From: Roseivirga seohaensis
GTDB taxonomy: Bacteria; Bacteroidota; Bacteroidia; Cytophagales; Cyclobacteriaceae
Assembly (NCBI RefSeq): GCF_001592945.1
Contig: NZ_LRPB01000023.1
Span: 248,001-312,000, forward strand
Reading direction: 5' to 3'
Length of the DNA stretch: 64,000 bases
Part shown: piece by piece, positions 5,720 through 29,545 of the stretch
Numbering within the stretch: position 1 is the first letter of the stretch
Layout: each line of letters opens with the position of its first letter
The notes under the pieces: generated by a model
Told to the model about the DNA's origin: nothing
The model's input: the letters and a program-made list of their open reading frames with translations, nothing else
The model's database searches: none
Translations under genes and position numbers: made by a program

Positions 5720-6769
5720 ATGATTAAAGGAAGAGGCGCTCAAAAGCAGGTGAAGAACAGGTTCTTGATGCACGAATATGTACAAGAACACCTAGAGGCA
5801 ATCGATGAATTTGATGGCCAAAACCCGAACACCAAATACATCCCCATCTTCCCAAAAACCATTGTGAACAAAGTGGAAAGTCCTGATGTAGGCATGACCT
5901 ACTCCCTCAACCCTTATCAAGGTTGCGAGCATGGCTGCATTTATTGCTATGCGCGAAACAGCCATGAATACTGGGGTTATAATGCTGGGTTAGATTTCGA
6001 AAAAGTGATTATGTACAAGGAGTCTGCGCCACAGTTGCTAGAAAAGCATTTGCAAAACCCCAATTGGCAGCCTTCTACCATCGTGCTTTCTGGCAATACC
6101 GATTGTTATCAGCCTTTGGAGCAAAAGCTCGAAATTACCCGAAAGCTGCTCGCTGTTTTTCTGAAATACAAACACCCGGTGGGCATTATTACCAAAAACG
6201 TTACCATTACCCGCGACCTCGATATTATTGGCCCTTTGGCCGACCTCAACCTGATTAGCGTTTATTTCAGCCTCACTACTTTGGATGAATCGGTAAGAAG
6301 AAAGCTTGAACCGAGAACAGCTTCGGCTATTAGAAAATTGAAGGCCATTGAAACCCTAACCCAGCGTGGCGTGCCCGTAAACATTATGATTGGCCCTATT
6401 ATTCCCGGCCTAAACGACCATGAAATTCCTGAAATTATGAAAGCCGCTTCCAAGGCTGGAGCGCGAAGCGCTGGTTATACCATGGTGCGGTTAAATGGCG
6501 CCATTGGCCAAGTGTTCGAACATTGGGTGCAGGAAGCTTTTCCCGACAGGGCAAGTAAAATTCTGAACCAAATAAAGGCCGCACACGGAGGCAAACTAAA
6601 CGACAGCCGTTACAGCACCAGAATGCGAGGCGAGGGTTTGATGGTGCAATCCATCAACCGACTGTTTGAGCTTTCTAAAGCCAAGTACTTTCAAAATACA
6701 GAACCCAGGCCGAAACTCCGCACCGACTTATTTGTGAAAACCAACAAAGGGCAGATGGGGCTGTTTTAG
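5720..6769 (+). CDS. PA0069-family radical SAM protein
   Basis: A 349-residue radical S-adenosylmethionine enzyme. The 4Fe-4S ligand motif CxxxCxxC is visible as CEHGCIYCYAR at about residues 73-83, followed by a spore photoproduct lyase-like barrel (VLSGNTDCYQPLE, TKNVTITRDLD, GPIIPGLNDHEIP). This order is typical of the uncharacterised PA0069/Rv2578c group, which is widespread but has no firmly assigned substrate. It is transcribed alone and divergently from the paralogous lipoprotein genes. The ATG at 5720 is preceded by a very A/T-rich leader. The enzyme class is secure; the reaction is not known. Confidence 0.9.
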   Translation: MIKGRGAQKQVKNRFLMHEYVQEHLEAIDEFDGQNPNTKYIPIFPKTIVNKVESPDVGMTYSLNPYQGCEHGCIYCYARNSHEYWGYNAGLDFEKVIMYKESAPQLLEKHLQNPNWQPSTIVLSGNTDCYQPLEQKLEITRKLLAVFLKYKHPVGIITKNVTITRDLDIIGPLADLNLISVYFSLTTLDESVRRKLEPRTASAIRKLKAIETLTQRGVPVNIMIGPIIPGLNDHEIPEIMKAASKAGARSAGYTMVRLNGAIGQVFEHWVQEAFPDRASKILNQIKAAHGGKLNDSRYSTRMRGEGLMVQSINRLFELSKAKYFQNTEPRPKLRTDLFVKTNKGQMGLF

Positions 6770-6902
6770 GAGGGGTTTGAAAAAAATATAGAGTGAATGG
6801 CTCCTTGCTTTTCTCTATTTAACCTACAAGCAATTTTCTAATACAATTTATCCTGTGAGTTTTCAAGTCTCAAATAAACCCTATCAATTGTTGACAATTC
6901 GT

Positions 6903-7842: not shown

Positions 7843-8864
7843 TTACAAGCCGTCCTTTTCATTAAATAGTTGCTTGAGTCTCATTTGTAATTTTTCTCCT
7901 CGTATAAATCTGTCAATGATTATTCCGTTTTCATCGATTAAAAAATTATCAGGAATATCTCGTACTCCATAAATCATTGCGGCTTCATTATTATCTCCTT
8001 TTAGGTCACTCACATTTGGCCAAGTCAATCCATCTTTTTCAATTGCTTTTTCCCATTTTTCTTTATTACTATCCAATGATACTCCAAGAATTTCAAAACC
8101 TTGGTCATTATATAGCTCAACCAGTTCAGGATTGAAAGCCCTACAAGGGCCGCACCAAGAAGCCCAAAACTCTATTAGGGTATACTTTCCCTTTAACTCC
8201 GATAATTGAATTGTTTGTCCGTCTACATTGGCTTGCCCTCTTCTGTGGATCGTAATTTTTCGTTTATCTGCGAGAATATTTGTTCTGTTTCTTCACTTCC
8301 CATCATTTCTTTTGACCAGTTTAATTGGGTCAGACTTTCATAGGAATTAGGGTAATCCTTAATGAATCCCTTATTAATATCAATAACCACGTATTGCATT
8401 TGTTCATAAAAAACAAAAAGTGAATCACGGTTTTCCTTTGTAACCATCGCTTCAAGTTTCCCCATTTCTTTAAAAATAGAGTCCTTTCTTTCTAAAAGTA
8501 GTTCAGATTCCTTCTGGGTATTCGAACCACTTACTTTACCTTCCGAAAAACTCCCCTCTTGACCAACAAAATCAATTTCTTTATTCTCTAACCAAAAAGT
8601 CCTGTCATCCCTACTTTCAATTATCCTTAAATGCGCTAAGGTTGGCCGACTTACATTTCCTTTGAATTGAAATTCTTCATTGAGAACAATCGCAGAATCA
8701 GCAATTACATCCATTTTTGGATAGAGGTATAATAAAACTTGGGTGCTGTCAGGTACATTTTTTGCGATTCCGTTGATTAAATATCCCTTACTTACAGGCT
8801 TATCTTGACAAGAAATTAATATTGTCAATGAAATTATAGCTATGCTTGTACTTAGATTTTTCAT
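7843..8864 (-). pseudogene. TlpA-like thiol-disulfide oxidoreductase with DUF4369-type N-terminus, frameshifted
   Basis: Two reading frames together make one standard Bacteroidota TlpA-like lipoprotein. The upstream frame (8864 down to 8223) gives 213 residues: a lipobox signal (ILISCQDK), a DUF4369-like beta domain and a helical linker ending EEGKPM-stop. The downstream frame continues without a gap as VDGQTIQLSELKGKYTLIEFWASWCGPCRAF, containing the thioredoxin active site WCGPC, and ends at 7843 after FNEKDGL. The break lies at about 8223-8245 and needs a one-base shift. The linker motif usually seen just before the thioredoxin domain (ApdF-like) is also poorly preserved. A sequencing error is possible, but the flanking duplications suggest real decay. 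If intact, the product would be a membrane-anchored periplasmic reductase. Confidence 0.8.
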
Positions 8865-8898
8865 TTAGCTTTTTTACTTATCCCCAAACAGTCTTGTA

Positions 8899-8931
8899 TG
8901 AGACTAAGCCCCATAAATATATTGAATTTTA
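8899..8931. repeat. Direct repeat, copy 2
   Basis: Matches 7715-7748, with the final 22 bases identical. It lies just upstream of the start of the TlpA-like pseudogene, so the two copies delimit a segment of about 1.2 kb. Confidence 0.8.
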
Positions 8932-9018
8932 GGTAGTTAACCCTAAGCAAACCGTAAAGCCTATGGCTTACAAAAAAATAAGAATAGAAATACCGATGAA
9001 CATAGCGAGCTGGATTGA

Positions 9019-9052
9019 TTGAATAGGGCTTTGATAAAACCAATTATCTTTG
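9019..9052 (+). promoter_or_regulatory. Candidate Bacteroidota promoter for the AraC-type gene
   Basis: TATCTTTG at 9045-9052 is an exact match to the TAnnTTTG -7 element, and a TTG lies 23 bp upstream at 9019-9021, at the long end of the accepted spacing. Transcription would begin near 9060 and give a leader of about 75 bases that contains the repeats at 9069-9128. Confidence 0.45.
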
Positions 9053-9068
9053 CTGAAAAACAGCATCA

Positions 9069-9128
9069 GATTCACGTTTTACTTATCGTAACTAATACTG
9101 TAAGCTCAACGTAACTAAATCGTGAATC
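9069..9128. promoter_or_regulatory. Inverted and direct repeats upstream of the AraC-type gene
   Basis: GATTCACG at 9069-9076 and CGTGAATC at 9121-9128 form a perfect 8-bp inverted repeat. Between the arms the 9-mer CGTAACTAA occurs twice, at 9087-9095 and 9110-9118, 23 bp apart. AraC-family proteins commonly bind two direct half-sites about two helical turns apart, so this may be an autoregulatory site; that link is an inference. Confidence 0.5.
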
Positions 9129-9136
9129 CATAGCCC

Positions 9137-10132
9137 ATGAATCTCTTTGGAATATTAGGTTTGTTTGCCGGTATAGCAGTAACAACTGGTTTGTTTTTAG
9201 CAGCTTACCTCATTTTTATTAGAAAGGATGATAAAATTGGCAACTACTTTCTTGGCGCACTGTTTTTGGCAATTTCACTTCGCGTAGGTAAGTCTATTGC
9301 ATATTTTCTTCTTCCTGTTATGGCAGATGAAGGTGTGGCCACAGGCTTTTTGGGGCTTTCTTTAATAGGGCCGCTCACATTGTTTTATACCGCCTATGCT
9401 GCCAGTAGAAAATCAATTCCATGGTATTATTATGCAATTCATTTTATATACCCATTGGTTGGTACAGTGCTTTGCTTCACGGTAGTAAAAGATGAAGGAT
9501 TTACATGGTTTTATCAGATTACTACAGTCATAATGTTTTTCTATTTGCTCAAGGCATGGAAGGTGAATACCGTAAGCACTTATGAGCATGAGCGCCTTGC
9601 TGCTTGGAACAAGCAAATATTGATTGCTGTTTCGCTAGTTTGGGCGGCCTTTGTTTATCAGCACCTTACCAACTCCATGATGGATTATGCCATTGGTTCA
9701 GGAATTGCGGCTGTGGGCATTTATTTTGTGTTTATCAATGCCCTCAAATCTCCAGTGGTTTTTCAGCCAGCCATGAAGGTAGAGGTTTCTCCATTGTATG
9801 TAAAGAAGGTGAAAGAGGCCTTTGAGCATGAAAATGTTTACAGAGTGCCAGGAATAACAATCAATCAACTTTCCGAGCAATTACAAATACCCGCTTATTT
9901 GATCACTCATTGTGTAAAAGAACTTTACAAAATGACATTTCCTGAAGCCATTAATCATTTCAGAATTAACGAAGTGCAGAGCCTATTATTGATCGAAGAC
10001 AATGTAAAAGTGGAGGCTTTAGCTTATGATGTTGGCTTTAAAACGCCATCTGCATTTTATGCCGCGTTTAAAAAGCAAACGGGTATGAGTCCGAAGGTTT
10101 TTAAGCAGACCCAGGCACTAAAAACAGCATAA
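9137..10132 (+). CDS. AraC-family transcriptional regulator with N-terminal membrane domain
   Basis: A 331-residue protein in two parts. Residues 1-215 are hydrophobic, with about six to seven predicted membrane segments (LFGILGLFAGIAVTTGLFLAAYLIF at the start), like other Bacteroidota membrane-bound AraC proteins. Residues about 230-331 form the double helix-turn-helix DNA-binding domain, including the second-helix signature VEALAYDVGFKTPSAFYAAFKKQTGMSPKVFKQ. It is therefore likely a membrane sensor that acts directly on DNA. It converges on the DUF2911 gene. Target genes cannot be named; the repeats in its own leader suggest autoregulation. Confidence 0.9.
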   Translation: MNLFGILGLFAGIAVTTGLFLAAYLIFIRKDDKIGNYFLGALFLAISLRVGKSIAYFLLPVMADEGVATGFLGLSLIGPLTLFYTAYAASRKSIPWYYYAIHFIYPLVGTVLCFTVVKDEGFTWFYQITTVIMFFYLLKAWKVNTVSTYEHERLAAWNKQILIAVSLVWAAFVYQHLTNSMMDYAIGSGIAAVGIYFVFINALKSPVVFQPAMKVEVSPLYVKKVKEAFEHENVYRVPGITINQLSEQLQIPAYLITHCVKELYKMTFPEAINHFRINEVQSLLLIEDNVKVEALAYDVGFKTPSAFYAAFKKQTGMSPKVFKQTQALKTA

Positions 10133-10160
10133 AAACGACATGCCATTGCTGGCATGCCGT
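10131..10160 (-). terminator. Rho-independent terminator of the DUF2911 gene
   Basis: Read on the minus strand, CGGCATGCC-agcaat-GGCATGTCG is followed by TTTTT. The U-tract is on the minus strand, so it mainly ends the DUF2911 transcript; it overlaps the last bases of the convergent AraC gene. Confidence 0.8.
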
Positions 10161-10181
10161 CTGGTCAAAAAACCCGAAAAC

Positions 10182-11282
10182 TCAACTCCCAGGTACTTTA
10201 TAGGTATTGTTCTCTATTTCAGTTTTAATCTGGCCCAACCTTGCCCTGAATCCTTCAGGAATAACCTTTTCTACTTCATTCAATGTTTTCAGAGCAGATT
10301 TCTTATTGCCCAAGTAGTATTGAAAGATTCCTTTGTTCAACATTAGAAACCATGCATCAGGATTCTCCTTCAATAGCCTTTCTGTAATTTCAAGTGCATC
10401 TGATGCCTTATTGTTTTGCAATAAAAATATCCCCAATTCATTGGCCTCATTCGGGCTCATATCCATAGCTTTCAATTCAGTAATGGTAGCAGTGAGCTCT
10501 TCACTCTTATTAAGAGCCTTTAAAAGTCTAACTTTAGTCGTGAGGTTAGTCACATTTTTATTGGCAGCAAAACCACCATAACCACCATTGATAGACCTAT
10601 CTGCCCAGGTAAGTGCTTCTTCTAAGTTAGTGTTATGTATTAAGCACCACGCAGCGGCATCATTCCACGCTTGCCAGTGGTAAGTGTTGATACCACGCAG
10701 CTCACTTCTAAAACTTTCAACTACCGTATTATTAATATCAACACCTACTGTAAAAGGAATCCTTTGATTACCCCACTCCAAAGCGACTTGCACTGTTGAT
10801 TCAGTCCAATTGATGAATTCATAATCCAGCTTTTCTGAAGGAGCGCATTCTTCACTTTTTACATCAACCTTTAAGGTAACATCCTTGTCCACATCAAGGT
10901 AGTAGCTTCCCCATTGATCATTATTATGAGCAAAAAGGAGCTGGTAGCTATCATCTTTAGGTATGATATGAAATCCATACTTCCCTGCTTTCAATGCCTT
11001 ACCCTCTATGGTTACATCGGTACTGAATTCGATGGTAGTATTCATATTAGCACCAGCTCGCCACGGTATCGGGTCACCATTTTTAGGAATTACATTGGTG
11101 TCATTCCATACATCCCTTCCATTCGCAGAAGGACTTGAGTAATCGATGGTGATATCTGTGACAGCAAGTCGCTGTGTTTCGGTAACACGATTACTCGGCT
11201 GAGGAATTTTTAAAGTGTGAAATTGAGCGCTCGCTTCTACTGCTGCAATCGATAGTAGCAGCACGGCTAATAATTTTTTCAT
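10182..11282 (-). CDS. DUF2911 domain protein with C-terminal TPR-like repeats
   Basis: A 366-residue exported protein. The first 20 residues are a cleavable signal peptide (LLAVLLLSIAAVEASAQ). Residues about 25-170 match DUF2911 as remembered: DITIDYSSPSANGRDVW, PWRAGANMNTTIEFSTDVTIEGKALKAGKYGFHIIP. The C-terminal ~150 residues are alpha-helical with TPR-like spacing (ASDALEITERLLKENPDAWFLMLNKGIFQYYLGNKKSALKTL). DUF2911 proteins are common in Bacteroidota and have no assigned biochemical role. It is transcribed alone and ends at a strong terminator. Confidence 0.85.
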   Translation of the reverse strand: MKKLLAVLLLSIAAVEASAQFHTLKIPQPSNRVTETQRLAVTDITIDYSSPSANGRDVWNDTNVIPKNGDPIPWRAGANMNTTIEFSTDVTIEGKALKAGKYGFHIIPKDDSYQLLFAHNNDQWGSYYLDVDKDVTLKVDVKSEECAPSEKLDYEFINWTESTVQVALEWGNQRIPFTVGVDINNTVVESFRSELRGINTYHWQAWNDAAAWCLIHNTNLEEALTWADRSINGGYGGFAANKNVTNLTTKVRLLKALNKSEELTATITELKAMDMSPNEANELGIFLLQNNKASDALEITERLLKENPDAWFLMLNKGIFQYYLGNKKSALKTLNEVEKVIPEGFRARLGQIKTEIENNTYKVPGS

Positions 11283-20422: not shown

Positions 20423-23116
20423 ATGAAAAGAATAGGTTTAATTTTTTTGCTCACATTCTTATGTGTAGCAATGCAAAACGCAAATGCCCAACAAAAAGTA
20501 GTTTACCTTGGCGAGGTAAGAGATTCATTGGGTTTGCCCCTTGAATTTGCCAACGTAATGGCCATGGACACCACCAAAAAAACGATTGCTTCGTTTGGAG
20601 TCACCAATAAGCAAGGTCAGTTTAGATTACTGTTAGAAGACCAAAAAGTCTATCAGCTTAAGGTCAGTTTTATTGGCTTTGTTCCTTTCGAGAGGTATTT
20701 CACCGCCAAAGACACCCAAGATTTACCCGTTTCAATTCAGTTGAATAATGACGAAAGAAATTTGGGTGCTGTAGAAGTGGTTTCTGAAATGCCCATTCTC
20801 ATTCAAGGCGACACCATTACTTATAAAACCGATGTATTTACCCAAGGTAACGAGCGCAAACTAGAAGATGTGCTCAAAGATTTACCTGGTTTTGAAGTAG
20901 ACGAAGACGGCCAAGTAAAAGTACAGGGTAAAAAAGTGGACAAGCTATTGGTTGATGGGAAAGAGTTTTTTGAAGGAGACACCAAACTGGCTACCAAAAA
21001 CCTGCCTGCCAAAGCGGTAGACAAAGTTCAGGTATTGCAGAATTTCAACGATGTTGGCCCTTTAAGCGGGGTGAATAACAGTGAGCAACTGGCATTGAAC
21101 ATTCAACTCAAGGAAGACATGAAAAACATGGTTTTTGGCGATTTGGAACTTGCAGGGGGCCCAGAAGAACGATATAAAGCTCACGCCAATGTTTTCTATT
21201 ATGATAAGAAAACCAACATTAACTTTATTGGTGATGCCAATAACGTAGGCGATTTGGCCTTTAGCATGAGCGACTACTTTAGGTTTAGCGGTGGCTTAGC
21301 GAGTTTAGCAAGCCGATCAGGTTCAAACTTCCGCGTAAGCTCCAACCAATTGGGTATTCCAATGGCAGAAAGAAACAGCGCAAAAGAATTAAATAACCAA
21401 TTGGGAGCCCTTAACTTCAATTACACGCCTAGCAGCAAAATCAGATTTTCAGGTTTTGCCATTGGTTCTAAAGTAGATAACACTTTGGGTTCAATATCGG
21501 AGCGCCAATATGTTTTGCAATCAGGAGAAACAGAAACCCTCACTACTGAATCGAATGTTCAGAGCACTTCGGGTTTGTTCAAATTGGGCATTACCTATTC
21601 GCCAAACGCAAGTTTGCAATTGGATTACAATGTGTTCTCTCGACTTTCTAATATTGAAAATTCAGACCTTCAAAATTCGCTTTTCAATAATACATCGAAT
21701 GATATTAACAGCTTAAGCACTCAACAGCCTTTTTCTATTGAACAGCAATTAAGGGCGTTTTATGCTCCAGATGAAAAGAACGTTTTTTCGGCTGAAGTAA
21801 CTTACAAAAACCAAGAGCAAGACCCAACATATGACTTGTCGACAACGCAAAGGCCTTTTGCGGCAATCATTCCTATGACGGGCAACAGCCCTTACAACCT
21901 GCTTCAATTTAAAAATATAGGTACCGAGCAAGCCGAAGCCGCCATTAACTATTATAGAATTCTGAACAACACCAATCACATCAACTTCAAACTTGGGGTA
22001 AACCAAACCAGTCAAGACTTAAGCTCTAGTATTTTGCAAAAATTGGACAACGGAAGTACAAATGAGTTCAACGATCCCGACTTAAATAACTTAGTTGATT
22101 ATAGTTTCAGCGATTACTATTTCGGGCTTTACTACAAAGTGAAGTTTGGAAAGTTGGTATTGAACCCAGGGCTTAACCTACATCAGTATTCCATCGAAAA
22201 TCAGCAAAACGGCATCACCGAAGGTTTTGACAAAACGCTTTTACTTCCTTCATTAAACGCCAAATACAATTTCAGAAATTCACATTCATTGAATTTGAAT
22301 TATGGTATGTCAGCCAGTTTTACCGATATTCAAAACGCTGCGCAAGGTATTATTGTCAGAGGTTATAACTCACTATTCGCAGGAAATCCAGTGTTGGATA
22401 ATAGTTGGTATCATAATATAAACCTCAACTATTTCAATTTCAACATGTATAATTTCCTTAACGTTTCGGGCGGAGTAAACTACCAAAAACGTTTTGACGA
22501 CATCACCAACATTATAGATTTCAGTGGATTAGAAAGGGTAAATACGCCTACTAACATTGATTTTGCCAATGAAAGCATGTCGGGGAATGCCAGTATCGAC
22601 AAAAGGTTCGACCATTACAGAGTCAGTCTTTCCGGAAACTGGTCGCGGTCGGTAACGAATAACCGTATCAGCGATCTGGCCAATGAAAATGTAAGTTTTC
22701 AACAAGGCTATAAAGCGGGACTTTCTACCACGGTTTTAAAAGCTTTAGAATTCAATTTTGGTTATGAAGTTTCATTCAATAATTACACCGCCAGCAGCAC
22801 TAGCAGTAAGTTCGAAAATCACAAACCTACGGCTCGTTTGTACATCAATTTCTTAAAAGATTTCCGTTTCGATACCGACTATGAGTATAACACTTATAAA
22901 AACACTTCTAACGGAACAAAAAGCACTTACGACCTGCTGAATGCCAAATTGAGTTACAGAAAAGAAGGCAGCAAATGGGAGTTTAAAACCACCGCCATGA
23001 ACCTGCTGAACACCACAGGAATTAGAAGAGATTCATTTTCGGAAAACTTAATCAGCACTTACGAGTACTTTATTCAAAAGCGATATTTCTTATTTTCAGT
23101 GAATTACGACTTATAA
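20423..23116 (+). CDS. TonB-receptor-like outer-membrane beta-barrel protein with CarboxypepD N-terminus
   Basis: An 897-residue outer-membrane protein. After a signal peptide (ending near NANAQQK), residues ~27-115 form a carboxypeptidase regulatory-like domain (VVYLGEVRDSLGLPLEFANVMAMD). A plug-like region follows (VEVVSEMPILIQGDTITYKTDVFTQGNERKLEDVLKDLPGFEV) and then a long beta-barrel ending in the aromatic KRYFLFSVNYDL. This layout matches the outer-membrane beta-barrel family 3 relatives of TonB receptors. The substrate is unknown. It is probably co-transcribed with the GLPGLI gene and ends at a clear terminator. Confidence 0.9.
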   Translation: MKRIGLIFLLTFLCVAMQNANAQQKVVYLGEVRDSLGLPLEFANVMAMDTTKKTIASFGVTNKQGQFRLLLEDQKVYQLKVSFIGFVPFERYFTAKDTQDLPVSIQLNNDERNLGAVEVVSEMPILIQGDTITYKTDVFTQGNERKLEDVLKDLPGFEVDEDGQVKVQGKKVDKLLVDGKEFFEGDTKLATKNLPAKAVDKVQVLQNFNDVGPLSGVNNSEQLALNIQLKEDMKNMVFGDLELAGGPEERYKAHANVFYYDKKTNINFIGDANNVGDLAFSMSDYFRFSGGLASLASRSGSNFRVSSNQLGIPMAERNSAKELNNQLGALNFNYTPSSKIRFSGFAIGSKVDNTLGSISERQYVLQSGETETLTTESNVQSTSGLFKLGITYSPNASLQLDYNVFSRLSNIENSDLQNSLFNNTSNDINSLSTQQPFSIEQQLRAFYAPDEKNVFSAEVTYKNQEQDPTYDLSTTQRPFAAIIPMTGNSPYNLLQFKNIGTEQAEAAINYYRILNNTNHINFKLGVNQTSQDLSSSILQKLDNGSTNEFNDPDLNNLVDYSFSDYYFGLYYKVKFGKLVLNPGLNLHQYSIENQQNGITEGFDKTLLLPSLNAKYNFRNSHSLNLNYGMSASFTDIQNAAQGIIVRGYNSLFAGNPVLDNSWYHNINLNYFNFNMYNFLNVSGGVNYQKRFDDITNIIDFSGLERVNTPTNIDFANESMSGNASIDKRFDHYRVSLSGNWSRSVTNNRISDLANENVSFQQGYKAGLSTTVLKALEFNFGYEVSFNNYTASSTSSKFENHKPTARLYINFLKDFRFDTDYEYNTYKNTSNGTKSTYDLLNAKLSYRKEGSKWEFKTTAMNLLNTTGIRRDSFSENLISTYEYFIQKRYFLFSVNYDL

Positions 23117-23144
23117 CAAAATACGTTATATTAAATTCTATTCT

Positions 23145-23173
23145 ATGCCGCTCGGTTTTGAGCGGCATTTTTT
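23145..23173 (+). terminator. Rho-independent terminator
   Basis: ATGCCGCTC and GAGCGGCAT form a perfect 9-bp stem around a 6-base loop, followed by TTTTTT. It closes the GLPGLI/receptor unit. Confidence 0.93.
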
Positions 23174-23309
23174 ATGCCTTTCTCATAACAGCATTATTAT
23201 CAAAATCTTATCGTGTTTAACAGTCTTGCAGTTTTATCACCCATCACAATGTTATCCGATCAATAATTTCTGCTATTTTTATGGCTGAGATTTTTTAATC
23301 CATACAGTC

Positions 23310-23939
23310 ATGAAGCGTCTTCTTGTTATTGTAATACTCATAGGTGTAGTTGCCTATGTCGCAGTTCAGTATCTAAAAGATCGTAGATTCAATCCGCCAT
23401 CGGCTTACGATTATGAACTAAGCCAAAATATCGATACCGATTTTTACGATCGCGCTGTGCTTAAAGAATACTATAAAACTGCTTTAGAAGTGGGTTCTTA
23501 TGCCCGTTCATTGTGGAGAAACAATCAGATAGATGTTCGATTTATCAATGATGAAGATTTTGAATCTACCCGAGCAACAGAAGTTTATAATGAAATGATT
23601 GCCACGGCCAAAATGCTCGAAACTAAACTTGAAATGTCTGCCGAACTAAAATCTAAAGGTTATAATGACTATGAAGTGCGAATGTACTTTGAACAAGGCT
23701 TGACTCGAGAAGACATTAACTTTGAAAGAAATTACCATTTGCTCGATCTAAAAATAGGAGCAAAAGGTGCGGCCGTTTGGGAACTTCAAAAGTTATTAAA
23801 CACCGATTCAGACAGCATTCCTCAAGACGGAATATTTAACCTAATTACTGCCAATAGGCTTAAGACTTTTCAACAAAACAATGGTCTATTCCCTTCGGGC
23901 GAAGTAGACGAAAAAACACTTAAAGCTTTAATTAAATAA
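23310..23939 (+). CDS. Membrane-anchored protein with C-terminal peptidoglycan-binding domain
   Basis: A 209-residue protein. The N-terminus is one membrane segment (LLVIVILIGVVAYVAVQYL), followed by a helical region of unknown fold. Residues ~147-208 fit a PG_binding_1 repeat: LDLKIGAKGAAVWELQKLLN, DGIFNLITANRLKTFQQNNGLFPSGEVDEKTLKALI. It is probably anchored in the inner membrane and touches cell wall or another periplasmic polymer. It is the first of five closely spaced genes (gaps of 3, 10, -8 and 0 bp) leading to a Ras-like GTPase and a hybrid kinase, and may link that system to the envelope. Confidence 0.8.
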   Translation: MKRLLVIVILIGVVAYVAVQYLKDRRFNPPSAYDYELSQNIDTDFYDRAVLKEYYKTALEVGSYARSLWRNNQIDVRFINDEDFESTRATEVYNEMIATAKMLETKLEMSAELKSKGYNDYEVRMYFEQGLTREDINFERNYHLLDLKIGAKGAAVWELQKLLNTDSDSIPQDGIFNLITANRLKTFQQNNGLFPSGEVDEKTLKALIK

Positions 23940-23942
23940 ATC

Positions 23943-24293
23943 ATGGCTAAGGAAAAAGAAGAAGAAAAGAAACAACCTGTTTCTTCAGGCGACCCAAAAA
24001 TTGATGCAGTTAAACAATTGATTTTTGGCGAAAGCATGCAGCAGTACGATGCGGAGTTCAACGAAATCAAAGCGTTAATCAAGCGTACGCGCAACGAAAT
24101 TGAAAGCGAATTAAACGACACCCGCGATCAGCTCAACAACATCATCAACGACTTAAGAACCGACATGAACAAGAAGGTGACTCAGCTTAGGTCTGATATG
24201 GATGAAGCCGTTACCGACCTTGATAACAGAAAAGTAAACAGAAAGTTACTCGGTGCCCTATTGCAAGAAATGGGCAAACAAATCGCTGAATAA
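23943..24293 (+). CDS. Small coiled-coil protein of the GTPase operon
   Basis: A 116-residue, highly charged cytoplasmic protein. After a lysine/glutamate-rich tail it has a short motif (AVKQLIFGESMQQYDAEFNEIKALI) and then heptad-like repeats of charged residues to about residue 95, ending KLLGALLQEMGKQIAE. No enzyme motif is seen. The single coiled coil suggests an oligomeric adaptor or scaffold. It starts 3 bp after the peptidoglycan-binding gene and precedes the longin-like gene by 10 bp. I recall similar LIFGEEM-type coiled-coil proteins beside small GTPase genes, but give no function. Confidence 0.75.
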   Translation: MAKEKEEEKKQPVSSGDPKIDAVKQLIFGESMQQYDAEFNEIKALIKRTRNEIESELNDTRDQLNNIINDLRTDMNKKVTQLRSDMDEAVTDLDNRKVNRKLLGALLQEMGKQIAE

Positions 24294-24303
24294 GTAACCA
24301 TTC

Positions 24304-25140
24304 ATGAGCAAAGGCTTGGCTTTTGATAAACTTAGAGAAATACTCCTAGAGAAAGACTGGGAGGAAAGGGAAGAGTTTGCCCAAAAGCTAAGCGACCTCG
24401 ATGATCAGTTAAACTCAAGAAACAGGCTGGAAGAAAAAATTCAGCCTATTCTAGACGATGAACGTGAAAGCCTAAGGCATCGCTTTCCTGATCTTTTCGG
24501 CCCTCAAATTACCGAAACGATTAGCAAACAAATTCGCGAATCGCAAGATGAAGTGGTAGAAGCACTCTATCCTATTTTGGGTAGAATGATCAAAAAATAC
24601 ATTACCAGCGAAATAGAAAAGCTTTCTGAAAAAGTAGATGAGCAAATGAAGCTTGCTTTTTCTTGGGAGGCTTGGAAAATTCGAATCAAAGCTTGGTTTA
24701 CCGGCACGCCTCAAAAAAACATGATTATTTCTAAGCTCATTGAGCCTAAAATTGAAGAAATATTTATTGTTGAAAAGCAATCGGGCATGCTAATGGGGAG
24801 CTTCTCTAAAAACCATTCGGTAGATCAAGAGATGATTGCCGCAATGCTTACTGCCATTAAAACCTTTGTAGAAGACGCTTTCAAAAGCGAAACTCAAGAG
24901 CTGGACAGCATTGATTACGACAACTATAAAATCGTAATAAAGAACTTCAAATCATTCTTTATTGCTGTGGTTACTTCGGGCGGAATGAGCATGGCTTTTC
25001 GCGACAAGCTGGACGACACCTTACTAGATTTTGCCGAAAAAGTACTTAGAAAGGCTAAAGATGCCGATGAAGAAGTAAAGCAAGAAAGAATAACCTCTGG
25101 TCTTGAGCAATACTTTGATAACTTTGACAAGAATGAATAA
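24304..25140 (+). CDS. Helical protein with roadblock/longin-like C-terminal region, GTPase partner candidate
   Basis: A 278-residue soluble protein. Residues ~1-135 are helical and charged, including the segment KQIRESQDEVVEALYPILGRMIKKYI, which resembles the part preceding OmpA domains in some Bacteroidota and cyanobacterial proteins. Residues ~152-265 alternate strands and helices (IEEIFIVEKQSGMLMGSFS, MIAAMLTAIKTFVEDAF, DYDNYKIVIKNFKSFFIAVVTSGG, LDDTLLDFAEKVL) in the pattern of roadblock/longin folds, which act as GAPs or GEFs of small GTPases such as MglA and Rag. The next gene is a Ras-like GTPase whose start overlaps this one by 8 bp. The fold assignment is a reading of the pattern, not a search result. 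No OmpA domain is present. Confidence 0.65.
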   Translation: MSKGLAFDKLREILLEKDWEEREEFAQKLSDLDDQLNSRNRLEEKIQPILDDERESLRHRFPDLFGPQITETISKQIRESQDEVVEALYPILGRMIKKYITSEIEKLSEKVDEQMKLAFSWEAWKIRIKAWFTGTPQKNMIISKLIEPKIEEIFIVEKQSGMLMGSFSKNHSVDQEMIAAMLTAIKTFVEDAFKSETQELDSIDYDNYKIVIKNFKSFFIAVVTSGGMSMAFRDKLDDTLLDFAEKVLRKAKDADEEVKQERITSGLEQYFDNFDKNE

Positions 25141-25609
25141 AAAGGTAATTCTTGTTGGTCACTTCGGGGTAGGAAAAACTTCCTTAGTACAGCAATTTGT
25201 TTACAGTAAATTTTCCGAAAAATACCTCACTACTATTGGAGTAAAAATCGACAAAAAAGTAGTTGAATTCGATGGATATCAAATGACCCTACTTATTTGG
25301 GACATCGCTGGCGAAACCGAGCAGAACAGCGTATCAAAAAGCTATAAATTGGGCTCACACGGTATTATCTATGTTTTTGACCTAACCCGGCCTTCTACCT
25401 ACGAAAATCTTGACAAACAACTAGACTATTTGAAAACACTATTGCCCAATGCTCCCATTCAGATATTAGGAAATAAAAAAGACTTGATTTCTGAAGAAGA
25501 ACTTAACAGTATTAAAGAAAGCATTCCGCTTTCCTTTAAAGCCACAAGTGCCAAAACAGGGGAACATGTTGAAGAAGCATTTATCGACCTCGCTAAAGCA
25601 ATGCTGTAA
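25133..25609 (+). CDS. Prokaryotic Ras/Rab-like small GTPase
   Basis: A 158-residue small GTPase with every G motif: G1 GHFGVGKT at residues 9-16, a switch I threonine at 33/34 (YLTTIG), G3 WDIAGE at 56-61, G4 NKKD at 114-117 and G5 SAK at 139-141. I start at the ATG at 25133, inside the end of the preceding gene, because the more upstream 25103 adds residues that precede the P-loop strand without matching the family. Residue 61, the catalytic Gln of Ras, is Glu. There is no C-terminal cysteine, so membrane attachment by prenylation is not expected. It belongs to the broad Ras-like prokaryotic GTPases (MglA/Rup-type sensu lato). The hybrid kinase begins right after its stop. Confidence 0.92.
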   Translation: MNKKVILVGHFGVGKTSLVQQFVYSKFSEKYLTTIGVKIDKKVVEFDGYQMTLLIWDIAGETEQNSVSKSYKLGSHGIIYVFDLTRPSTYENLDKQLDYLKTLLPNAPIQILGNKKDLISEEELNSIKESIPLSFKATSAKTGEHVEEAFIDLAKAML

Positions 25610-27490
25610 ATGGATAAGCTCGATAAAGTCAAACTTCAGCAAGTAGCTTCAAAAATTCAAGTAACTATTTTTGATGAGGCTGGAAAAATACTCGAGAGCT
25701 GTGATACATTACTAAAAACAGATAAAAGTCAGCCAATTTTCGATCAATTCATGTTTTTACAAAGCTTACAAGAAGTCTTTGTAAGCATGGCCCTAGGCGA
25801 AAGCCATGAGTTTCCTGAAGTAGAATGGCAAGAACAACGACAAAGTTTATTGAGCCTAACTTTTGAGAAGCTGAAAAATGGGCAAATTCAGTTAGTTATA
25901 CTTGACAAAACAAGTGATTATCCACGAATTCTTTTAAATCAGCAAAGCAGAAACAATAGCGTTATTAATGAAGAAGTAGCACTACTTCAGAATAAAGTGG
26001 CTGAAATGGAAAACCAGCTTCTTGGGTATCAAAACGAGGAGTTAAAGAGAATTCAAGCTTTCAAAAATCAATTTTTTGCCAATGTAAGCCACGAGGTAAG
26101 AACACCATTGAATAGCATTGCAGGTTTAGTAAGCCTTATTCAAGAAGATAACTCAAAACTCAACGATTATTTGCCATCGCTAAAGGCTACTTCTGACCAC
26201 CTTAACTCCATCATCAACGATATTTTAGACATTTCTAAAATTGAAGCCCGAAAGCTTCAGTTTGAGCAAATAGATTTCAACTTAACAGAATGCATTACCA
26301 ACATTATTGCTGGTTTTGAATTTGAAGCAGAAAGAAAAAACACCCAAGTAAAGCTCAACATTCCTAATGAGCCTATTCTTCTCAAAAGTGACCCTACCCG
26401 TTTAAGTCAAGTATTATATAACCTGGTAGGGAATGCTCTAAAATTTACTTCAGAAGGTAAAGTAACGCTTGCCGTAAAGCCAACTATACTGAAAAACAAT
26501 CAAGTGAATATTCATTTTGAATTGACCGACACTGGAATTGGAATGACTCCTGAACAAGTGAAAAGTGTTTTGGAACCTTATGCGCAAGCCGACCAAAGCA
26601 CCTCCAGAATTTTTGGAGGAACCGGCCTAGGCCTAAACATTGCTTTAAAGCTTATTGAAGCCTTTGGGGGAAAACTCAATATTACTAGTAAGCCGCAAAA
26701 AGGTACCACCATGAGCTTCGACCTTGCTTTTGATAAAGGACAAGCCAAGCAAAAAAAGAAGCAACCAGATTCGAAACCTAGCCCTACTCTTGCCGAATTT
26801 AAAATTCTTTTTGGGGAAGACGACCCCGTAAGTCGTGCGGTAATTGCTGCATTTTTAGAGTCGCGAAAAGCACAACTCACGGTAGTAGCTTCTGGCGAAG
26901 AATTGATTTCACATTTAACTGATAATACTTTCGATATTGTTATTTCCGATATCCAGCTCAAGGGTTTGAGTGGCGTTGACGTAATTGATCAAAGAAGAAG
27001 TGTAAATGATTTTATACCCTTCATTTTTGTAAGCGGAAGCGAAATTGAAGAACTCAGTTCATTAGAACTTTTCAGCAATTGGCAAATATTGCAAAAACCC
27101 GTTGACCTGCCTTTTCTAGAAGAGAGCATCATTCAAGTTCTATCCTTGAAAAACAAGTTCAAAGTCGACTTGAGTATACTTAAACGTACGGTTCAAGAAG
27201 ACGAAAGCTTTTTGAAAGAGATGATTGAGGTGGTTATCTTAAACCTCCCAATGGAACTGAATATACTGAATGAAAAAACGGCCAAAGAAGACTGGACCGA
27301 GGTAAGAAAAGTATTGCATAAAATACGCCCTAGTATAGACTATTTAGGGATTACCTTTCTAAGCGAAACCCGTAAGGCTATACATAATCAAGTAGAAACA
27401 GGGAAAATAAAGGAATCCACAAAGCAGCAAATCAAAGAGTTTACAACAGGTACAGCCTTCGCATTGAATGACTTGAAAACATACATCTAG
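25610..27490 (+). CDS. Soluble hybrid histidine kinase (HisKA-HATPase-REC-Hpt)
   Basis: A 626-residue kinase without membrane segments. Residues 1-110 form an alpha/beta sensor of PAS-like character, and ~118-150 a coiled coil. The phospho-accepting His is H161 in ANVSHEVRTPLNSI. The ATPase domain has NLVGNALKF, DTGIGM and GGTGLGL. A receiver (~395-515) carries its acidic pair in GEDD and acceptor Asp in VISDIQLKG. The C-terminal ~100 residues look like an Hpt domain with a His in VLHKIRPSIDYLG. So a full internal phosphorelay is encoded, but no output domain. It starts on the base after the GTPase stop codon, indicating tight coupling. Its input may be the GTPase or longin-like protein rather than a ligand. 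Confidence 0.9.
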   Translation: MDKLDKVKLQQVASKIQVTIFDEAGKILESCDTLLKTDKSQPIFDQFMFLQSLQEVFVSMALGESHEFPEVEWQEQRQSLLSLTFEKLKNGQIQLVILDKTSDYPRILLNQQSRNNSVINEEVALLQNKVAEMENQLLGYQNEELKRIQAFKNQFFANVSHEVRTPLNSIAGLVSLIQEDNSKLNDYLPSLKATSDHLNSIINDILDISKIEARKLQFEQIDFNLTECITNIIAGFEFEAERKNTQVKLNIPNEPILLKSDPTRLSQVLYNLVGNALKFTSEGKVTLAVKPTILKNNQVNIHFELTDTGIGMTPEQVKSVLEPYAQADQSTSRIFGGTGLGLNIALKLIEAFGGKLNITSKPQKGTTMSFDLAFDKGQAKQKKKQPDSKPSPTLAEFKILFGEDDPVSRAVIAAFLESRKAQLTVVASGEELISHLTDNTFDIVISDIQLKGLSGVDVIDQRRSVNDFIPFIFVSGSEIEELSSLELFSNWQILQKPVDLPFLEESIIQVLSLKNKFKVDLSILKRTVQEDESFLKEMIEVVILNLPMELNILNEKTAKEDWTEVRKVLHKIRPSIDYLGITFLSETRKAIHNQVETGKIKESTKQQIKEFTTGTAFALNDLKTYI

Positions 27491-27876: not shown

Positions 27877-28001
27877 GAAATCAATGAGAAGTAGTAACCC
27901 TCAGGTTTCAAAGAATTCGATCACAAACGTGTGATCATCTTCATTAAGTTAGTAGTTTATTTGTTTAAAACCCGAGGAGTAGTTAACCTCGGGTTTTTTT
28001 A
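27877..28001 (+). ncRNA. Candidate small RNA
   Basis: A possible transcript of about 120 bases: a near-consensus -7 element GATCTTTG at 27864-27871, a perfect 7-bp hairpin GATCACA-AACG-TGTGATC at 27919-27936, and a strong terminator at 27971-28000. No reading frame of note. It could instead be the processed end of the kinase mRNA. The start point is a guess from the -7 element. Confidence 0.35.
27971..28000 (+). terminator. Rho-independent terminator
   Basis: CCCGAGG and CCTCGGG form a perfect 7-bp stem around a 9-base loop, preceded by AAAA and followed by TTTTTTT. It lies 480 bp after the kinase stop, too far to be its usual terminator, which supports a separate small transcript. Confidence 0.93.
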
Positions 28002-28189: not shown

Positions 28190-29545
28190 ATGAATACAGC
28201 CTCTTTTACCATTTTCGTAGTTGAAGATGATGAATGGTACCGAAAACTTCTGGTATATACCCTTGAATTAAACCCAGATTACCGCGTAGTAGCTTTTGAA
28301 GATGGAAAATCTTTAATGGATGCTCTTAAAGAAAAGCCACAGGTAATAACTCTGGATTATCGCCTGCCAGATACCAATGGAGAAGACCTTTTGAAAAAAA
28401 TAAAGGAGATCGCTCCTGAAATCAAGGTAATCATCATTTCAGAGCAAAGCGAAATAGATACTGCTGTAGAGTTACTTAAAAATGGCGCTTACGATTATAT
28501 TACTAAAACCAAAGACATAAAGGATAGGCTACACAATGTAATCAAACACATTCGTGAGCACTCTTCCTTACAAGAAAGAATAGAGACCCTTCAATCAGAA
28601 GTTGAGAAGAAATACGATTTCCAGAACTCAATTATTGGGCAAAGTGAACCTCTGAAAAAAGTGTTTGGGCTCATTAAGAAAGCTACAATTACCAATATCT
28701 CCGTAATCATTAATGGCGAAACTGGTACTGGAAAAGAGCTTGTAGCCAAGGCCGTTCATTATAATTCTGAAAAGAAAGAAAGCCCATTTGTAGCTGTAAA
28801 CATGAGTGCTATTCCGAAAGAGCTAGCAGAAAGCGAACTCTTTGGTCATGAAAAAGGAGCATTTACTGGTGCCGCCAATCGACATATTGGAAAGTTTGAG
28901 CAAGCCAATGGCGGAACACTCTTTTTGGATGAAATGGGCGAAATGGACAAAACCCTTCAGGCCAAAATATTAAGGGCACTTCAAGAAAAAGAAATTACCC
29001 GAGTAGGAGGAAAAGAGGTGGTTAAAATCAATTGTAGAATTGTAGCCGCCACCCATCGCGATTTACTGGAAGAAGTTAAGGCTGGCAATTTTAGAGAAGA
29101 TTTATATTATCGCCTTTTCGGGCTCACTATTCACCTTCCTCCTTTGCGCGAACGCGGGAAGGACATCATTGTTCTAGCCAAACACTTTATTGATGAATTT
29201 TGTAAAGAGAATGGTTTGGGTAAGAAAATCTTATCGTCAGACGCTTCTAAAAAACTGTTGGGCTATGGCTACCCAGGAAATATCAGAGAACTAAAATCTG
29301 TGGTGGAACTTGCTGTGGTAATGTCTGAAGGCGAAACCATCCAACCTGATGACATCACCTTCGGCACTAAAGATGTAATTGCTGAAATGTCGGGTGAAGA
29401 AATGAGTTTAAAAGAATACAACCAACGCATCATTCAGTTGTATTTAAAGAATTACGATAACGACATTAAACTGGTGGCCCAAAAATTAGATATCGGTCAG
29501 TCAACCATTTACCGAATGCTCAAAGAAATCGAAGAAAAGAATTAG
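28190..29545 (+). CDS. Sigma-54-dependent NtrC-family response regulator
   Basis: A 451-residue activator. Receiver domain (~5-120) with the acidic pair in VEDDEW and acceptor in ITLDYRLPDTNGE. A short helical linker leads to the AAA+ domain (~148-375) with Walker A GETGTGKE, the sigma-54 contact loop GAFTGA, Walker B GGTLFLDEMGEM and the arginine-finger region LYYRLFGLTIHLPPLRER. The C-terminus is a Fis-type helix-turn-helix (VAQKLDIGQSTIYRMLKEIE). It is a natural downstream partner for the hybrid kinase encoded upstream, although 699 bp separate them and a terminator lies between. A GG-N10-GC promoter-like sequence occurs downstream, before the lipoprotein gene. Confidence 0.95.
   Translation: MNTASFTIFVVEDDEWYRKLLVYTLELNPDYRVVAFEDGKSLMDALKEKPQVITLDYRLPDTNGEDLLKKIKEIAPEIKVIIISEQSEIDTAVELLKNGAYDYITKTKDIKDRLHNVIKHIREHSSLQERIETLQSEVEKKYDFQNSIIGQSEPLKKVFGLIKKATITNISVIINGETGTGKELVAKAVHYNSEKKESPFVAVNMSAIPKELAESELFGHEKGAFTGAANRHIGKFEQANGGTLFLDEMGEMDKTLQAKILRALQEKEITRVGGKEVVKINCRIVAATHRDLLEEVKAGNFREDLYYRLFGLTIHLPPLRERGKDIIVLAKHFIDEFCKENGLGKKILSSDASKKLLGYGYPGNIRELKSVVELAVVMSEGETIQPDDITFGTKDVIAEMSGEEMSLKEYNQRIIQLYLKNYDNDIKLVAQKLDIGQSTIYRMLKEIEEKN

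Follow-up and report, generated by a model that had tools for sequence, protein, structure and literature searches.

The DNA analysed here, a stretch of 64,000 nucleotides from Roseivirga seohaensis (assembly GCF_001592945.1, contig NZ_LRPB01000023.1, positions 248,001 to 312,000; hereafter, the window), carries a run of five genes that joins a small Ras-like GTPase to a hybrid histidine kinase. The products are, in order, a peptidoglycan-binding protein (PGB), a coiled-coil-like protein (CC), a predicted longin-type protein (LON), the GTPase and the kinase (Table 1). All five genes lie on the forward strand; 3 bp separate PGB from CC and 10 bp separate CC from LON, LON overlaps the GTPase gene by 8 bp, and the kinase gene follows the GTPase gene with no base between them. 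The layout described in an earlier annotation of the bare sequence (the original prediction) was thus re-derived unchanged.

Table 1. Genes and features of the operon; positions are counted from the first base of the window.
Feature	Position	Strand	Description
PGB	23310..23939	+	209 aa; PG_binding_1 and N-terminal hydrophobic segment
CC	23943..24293	+	116 aa; coiled-coil-like; head motif
LON	24304..25140	+	278 aa; predicted longin-type domain
GTPase	25133..25609	+	158 aa; ATG start; Ras-like, Group 1 Rup-type
Hybrid histidine kinase	25610..27490	+	626 aa; HisKA, HATPase_c, REC
Parts of the kinase (residues)			PAS-like, ~1-100; helix with Q111, Q112 and N115; HisKA, H161; HATPase_c; REC, D447; HPt-like, H570
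Terminator-like hairpin	23145..23168	+	10 pairs, then a T run; between the preceding outer-membrane-protein gene and the operon

Conservation of the gene set

The order PGB-CC-LON-GTPase-kinase is kept in 18 of the 19 loci found in relatives (related species were counted singly in all counts given here). At the exception, L039, the output protein is a SpoIIE-type phosphatase, and CC could be identified there by visual inspection only. LON, the family defined by the PGB middle region and the GTPase are each present in 20 of 59 genomes of relatives, a set to which the genome of the window belongs, and these are the identical 20 genomes; within the genus of the window the set is patchy (14 of 19 genomes, G000 counted). 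The ratio of nonsynonymous to synonymous substitution rates (dN/dS) against the relative G014 ranges from 0.03 to 0.10 across the five genes, of which the GTPase and the kinase show saturation at synonymous sites, and against a second relative it was measurable for CC only (0.048). The conserved order, the shared distribution and the low dN/dS therefore rule out a chance cluster. The original prediction had named co-conservation of the genes across relatives as one of the checks to be made, and this check came out in its favour.

Some relatives depart from the layout in detail. At L034, L038 and L039, CC and LON are separated by additional DNA or by another coiled-coil-like gene, whose product is longer than CC (L038:7946-8638, minus strand, 230 aa; L039:5969-6700, plus strand, 243 aa). 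At L035 (genome G027) the wall protein (6212-6841) and the kinase (8596-10430) are each split in two open reading frames (ORFs), and the wall-protein region contains an in-frame TAA.

The GTPase and its predicted longin-type neighbour

The GTPase matches the Pfam family Ras with an E-value of 2.1e-35. Its best solved chain is Rab14 (8.5e-29), and the best 60 chains are mostly named Rab or Rab-like. The motifs read GHFGVGKT (G1), TTIGV (G2), WDIAGE (G3), NKKD (G4) and TSAK in the G5 region, so that the complete G1-G5 set announced by the original prediction stands for the nucleotide-binding motifs but not for the usual catalytic residue: because G3 is WDIAGE, the catalytic Gln is replaced by Glu. 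The replacement is common among relatives, in which the position equivalent to Gln61 is Glu in 88 of 106 readable rows and Gln in a single one; all 15 rows of the GTPase alignment A2 have Glu. Judged by its sequence, the protein resembles Ras and Rab, and the description of the Rup GTPases appears to fit it better than that of MglA. Two papers, in their available text, place the Rup group nearest to Rab, Ras, Rho and Ran among the prokaryotic groups (PMC4316618, PMC4915359). At two loci, L101 and L143, two GTPase ORFs lie near one LON gene.

LON is soluble, with a helical N-terminal part followed by a predicted longin-type domain at the C-terminus, whose core spans approximately residues 149-271 in the AlphaFold2 (AF2) model. 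The model has a mean predicted local-distance difference test score (pLDDT) of 55.7, and its ten-residue blocks between residues 151 and 278 score 62-79, except for 52 at 191-200. The predicted elements (strands 149-157 and 163-168, helix 175-192, strands 202-205, 208-214 and 218-225, helices 230-251 and 256-271) follow the order beta-beta-alpha-beta-beta-beta-alpha-alpha of the longin fold, as a prediction of modest confidence. Comparison of the model with solved structures (Foldseek, VIA-align) returned longins, the best matches including the longins of Rab exchange factors, and the longin matches outscore MglB. The longin-like fold that the original prediction gave to the third gene is thereby supported, at modest confidence, by a structure prediction and by structural matches.

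Sequence searches give weaker hints. The Pfam model Fuz_longin_1 reaches an E-value of 0.05 with the LON of the window (14.2 bits vs a cut-off of 26.1) and is detected in 3 of 20 LON members, with a best E-value of 0.0046. The search of LON against PDB sequences gave 0 matches, and profile searches returned insignificant hits only, mostly to unrelated coiled coils; the longin of AP-4 sigma appeared in one of them (E 0.32) and in another no longin did. The roadblock family is absent from the matches of the window LON and from the best 25 of the 59 families compared with the LON profile.

Relatives of LON are widely distributed. At least 560 stretches in named genomes encode one, and 80 loci were kept. 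The LON ORF is complete in 77 of these, and 68 of the 77 have CC before LON and the GTPase after it. The titles of the kept loci include Cyanobacteria, Acidobacteria, Nitrospira, Desulfomonile, Mariprofundus and Chromatiales. A contig titled as a Klebsiella pneumoniae metagenome-assembled genome (L121) also carries the CC-LON-GTPase set, although its label is doubtful. In the phylum of the window, LON was found in 15 of 392 genomes, four with the short form and 11 (12 loci) with a long form of 589-636 aa. The long form has a transmembrane segment, called by a single hydropathy cut-off that misses borderline helices, and, in 12 of 12 loci, an OmpA domain by a local model. This model, which was built iteratively from these same proteins, matches 70 of the 77 named loci and 12 of the 14 phylum loci; the Pfam OmpA model scores above its cut-off in three of the four long LON proteins tested.

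We propose that LON, probably as a dimer, would act as an exchange factor or activator of the GTPase. Alternatively, LON may be a structural scaffold that holds CC, the GTPase and the kinase and has neither activity. Such a role would suit its long helical N-terminus, the head motif in common with CC (see below) and the 3 of 14 phylum loci in which no GTPase was found beside LON, and longin domains are likewise part of SNARE proteins that have no role in GTPase control, according to the available part of a review (PMC10933270). We nevertheless regard the scaffold as unlikely, given that the best structural matches include the longins of Rab exchange factors and that the 20 of 59 relatives' genomes with LON are exactly those with the GTPase. 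A regulatory action of LON on the GTPase is thus the reading carried forward here.

The peptidoglycan-binding protein and the hybrid kinase

PGB ends in a PG_binding_1 domain (Pfam, E 2.3e-11) and has one clear membrane segment, residues 4-22, with a mean hydropathy of 2.68. It is presumably a single-pass membrane protein whose conserved middle region is periplasmic. Among 31 genomes with a short LON, 27 gave a match to the middle-region family (20 of 20 among the relatives, and 1 of 2 and 6 of 9 among the others). Matches were obtained in 0 of 13 genomes with an OmpA-type LON (0 of 11 and 0 of 2), and in 0 of 39 relatives and 0 of 377 phylum genomes that have no LON, two sets that partly overlap. 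The phylum and class searches scored part of the first-look candidates (up to 6, or 11 in the 377-genome PGB search). In seven genomes PGB is not beside LON, being located on another contig in six and 217 kb away in G674. That PGB co-occurs with LON even when unlinked is the best evidence for its membership of the system. In the lineage of the window LON is soluble and a wall domain is provided by PGB, whereas in the OmpA-fused relatives one protein reaches from the longin domain to the wall.

CC has no transmembrane segment. Its composition and weak matches to coiled-coil Pfam families suggest a coiled coil. Many CC and LON proteins open with a common head motif of the form (L/I)xx(L/I)Rx(I/L)L(F/L)G or similar, which reads IDAVKQLIFG in the CC of the window. 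In its tight version the motif occurs in 108 of 111 CC and 56 of 110 LON proteins and in none of the other 1949 ORFs at these loci, and shuffled N-termini contain it in 2 of 2200 cases for LON and 0 of 2220 for CC. The hhalign comparison of the motif used segments chosen by the pattern itself, so only the shuffle and other-ORF controls are usable. The motif may have a docking role common to the two proteins, and CC could tie LON to PGB, possibly through it.

The two ends of the operon might instead be neighbours inherited together with separate functions, PGB and CC serving the wall and LON, GTPase and kinase serving signalling. The family f76, to which six of the seven genomes with an unlinked PGB belong, offers some ground for this, as PGB there lies apart from LON, with CC adjoining PGB in four of six genomes, and LON, GTPase and output protein stay together at five of seven LON loci. 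However, both halves are present in six of the seven f76 genomes, no PGB was detected in the 377 phylum genomes that have no LON, and in the 68 of 77 named loci mentioned above it is CC that precedes LON and the GTPase that follows. We consider two independent functions improbable and treat the five genes as one system.

The domains HisKA, HATPase_c and REC were recognised in the fifth gene by Pfam, and since the maximum hydropathy of the kinase is 1.30, it has no transmembrane segment; on both counts the original prediction was right. Two further features had escaped it, namely the PAS-like N-terminal domain and the C-terminal HPt-like region. H161, D447 and K496 are kept in 19 of 19 aligned kinases. 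The HPt-like region, which scores 17.0 bits vs the Pfam Hpt cut-off of 24.6, is missing in 2 of the 19, and H570 is kept in all 17 that have it. Phosphate would pass from H161 to D447, on to H570 and then to a response regulator. The structural model of the N-terminus gives PAS matches; a roadblock fold was considered for this region and discarded, one dynein chain appearing at rank 13.

This N-terminal output domain extends well beyond the kinases. The position of Q112 is Gln in 37 of 37 rows of the output-domain alignment A5 and in 69 of 69 readable rows of the locus scan. Wherever the profile matched (71 of the 113 loci scanned, 36 of these 71 rows being the profile's own seeds), the ORF carrying the domain starts at most 135 bp from the GTPase stop codon. 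The domain precedes effectors as varied as histidine kinases, SpoIIE phosphatases, cyclases and HD domains, and this variety suggests that the GTPase-PAS step is what they have in common. Stand-alone PAS-like proteins of approximately 126-151 aa, which are homologues of the N-terminal part of the kinase and have the same invariant Gln, directly follow the GTPase at L083, L087, L097, L118, L124, L149 and others.

We propose that the GTP-bound GTPase would dock on the PAS domain and the adjacent QQxxN helix and change the activity of the kinase. A different arrangement, the chief competitor of this reading although we assign it a low probability, is that the output protein controls GTP hydrolysis: its invariant Gln would enter the active site in trans, making the kinase the GTPase-activating protein. 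The GTPase itself may then take the output role, as it does in the conservon of actinobacteria, an idea already present in the available text of the 2014 survey (PMC4316618). The near absence of a G3 Gln (1 of 106 readable rows), whereas the Gln of the output domain is invariant, speaks for this arrangement. On the other side, the modelled Q112 lies on a long helix after the PAS core, which would be a frequent site of coupling residues, and a domain found in front of cyclases, HD domains and SpoIIE phosphatases, or by itself, suits a reader of the GTPase state at least equally. The modelled position of Q112 after the PAS core neither proves nor excludes an action in trans. We retain docking of the GTP-bound GTPase on the PAS domain as the output step.

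An NtrC-type sigma-54 response regulator gene is the next gene downstream of the kinase (28190-29545, plus strand). It was considered as a fixed partner and rejected; because only 2 of 19 loci of relatives (L021 and L023) have it within the fetched flanks, it was left out of the parts of the system. NtrC-type genes also lie near the system at the phylum loci L063-L067, and a relative of the sigma-54 domain of this gene adjoins the GTPase at L058-L060. An inverted repeat, GATCACAAACGTGTGATC, is located at 27919-27936, within the 700 bp that separate the kinase from the NtrC-type gene. Upstream of the operon, the terminator-like hairpin of Table 1 is weak on its own, as the region contains seven such sites vs 4.7 (standard deviation 2.3) in shuffled sequences. 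A promoter pattern of bacteria of this type, TTTG-N-TAnnTTTG, occurs eight times vs 7.4 expected, with no occurrence in 23116-23310; a sigma-70 scan gave six sites vs 12.9 expected, and a scan for tandem repeats found none.

A probable split-anchor signalling system and its known counterparts

Taken together, the data make it reasonably probable, in our judgement, that the operon encodes a signalling system of the Group 1 Rup type with a split wall anchor, operating by the LON-GTPase-kinase mechanism proposed above. The state of the envelope would be the likely input, received through PGB and CC. Several observations weigh against this reading. The longin fold of LON comes from a model of modest confidence, and no Pfam or NCBIfam family matches LON above its curated cut-off, longin and roadblock models included, so the longin assignment depends on the structure model. 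In the presumed orientation, approximately three residues of PGB would face the cytoplasm, which makes a direct link between PGB and the GTPase weak and is the principal gap in the proposed mechanism; the original prediction had PGB linking the system to the wall, and co-occurrence supports it as a real component while the topology disfavours direct contact with the GTPase. Four of the 31 short-LON genomes have no PGB match (G191, G757, which is in 630 contigs, G563 and G583). The order CC-LON-GTPase is found in 7 of 14 phylum loci, the GTPase being elsewhere in the locus in four and not found in three, and no CC was found upstream of LON in one of the 14. Lastly, the output-domain profile missed 42 of the 113 loci.

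More tentatively, with the odds somewhat against it, a bacterial Rab-like GTPase with its own longin platform may serve across many phyla as a switch from wall to cytoplasm with exchangeable PAS-led outputs. If so, bacteria would have used for signalling, widely and since early times, the Rab-longin pairing that is known from the membrane biology of archaea and eukaryotes. With the partner domain identified as a longin, the Rup GTPases would gain a testable regulator and the Rab-longin pairing a bacterial counterpart. The split operon offers a simple genetic system in which each of the five components has a gene of its own.

The MglA/MglB system of Myxococcus polarity pairs a small GTPase with a roadblock partner. 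A system of this type was rejected here, since LON has no roadblock family match and its longin matches outscore MglB. In eukaryotes, TRAPP and Mon1-Ccz1 are Rab exchange factors with longin cores; the set in the window differs in being tied to two-component signalling and the cell wall, and exchange activity is only proposed for it. Roadblock and longin families are assigned an archaeal origin in the available part of the review cited above (PMC10933270), and another paper, again in its available part, makes the case that longins arose from MglB-like roadblock domains of prokaryotes (PMC3521125), so a link between bacteria and longins had been proposed earlier. The actinobacterial conservon CvnA-D contains an MglA-type GTPase, a membrane kinase and an MglB homologue (PMC4316618, available text). 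It resembles the window in combining a histidine kinase, a protein of the roadblock superfold and a small GTPase in one operon; unlike it, no wall-binding member is described in that text, and in the window the GTPase is of the Rup type and the kinase is soluble.

The closest counterpart is the Group 1 Rup neighbourhood described by Wuichet and Sogaard-Andersen in 2014 (PMC4316618), as far as the available text of their survey extends. There, GTPases lacking the G3 Gln are accompanied by a cytoplasmic coiled-coil protein, by a protein with an unnamed domain, often with a transmembrane segment and OmpA, and by an output protein, either a kinase or a c-di-GMP enzyme, with an invariant N-terminal Gln. 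The hosts named include Bacteroidetes, the description was made without experiments, and as of 2014 no Rup member had been experimentally characterised. The remark in the original prediction that no characterised system of this composition is known accordingly needs a correction: the composition has been described, since neighbourhoods with a histidine kinase among the outputs appear in that text. Among the papers listed in our literature searches, which left out bioRxiv and many subscription papers, there was no experimental study of Rup GTPases and none that paired a bacterial Rup GTPase with a longin domain. The window shares with the 2014 description the missing G3 Gln, the coiled-coil protein, the unnamed-domain protein and the kinase with an invariant Gln; by this match of descriptions, LON presumably corresponds to the unnamed domain and Q112 to the invariant Gln. 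In the window, LON has neither the transmembrane segment nor OmpA but is homologous to the LON-transmembrane-OmpA proteins, which agrees with a description that has these parts 'often'. The operon additionally encodes a membrane protein with PG_binding_1. Neither a longin nor a PAS fold is named in the available text of the survey. The general set has thus been known since 2014 from computation, and what looks new is the longin fold together with the variant that carries a separate wall protein.

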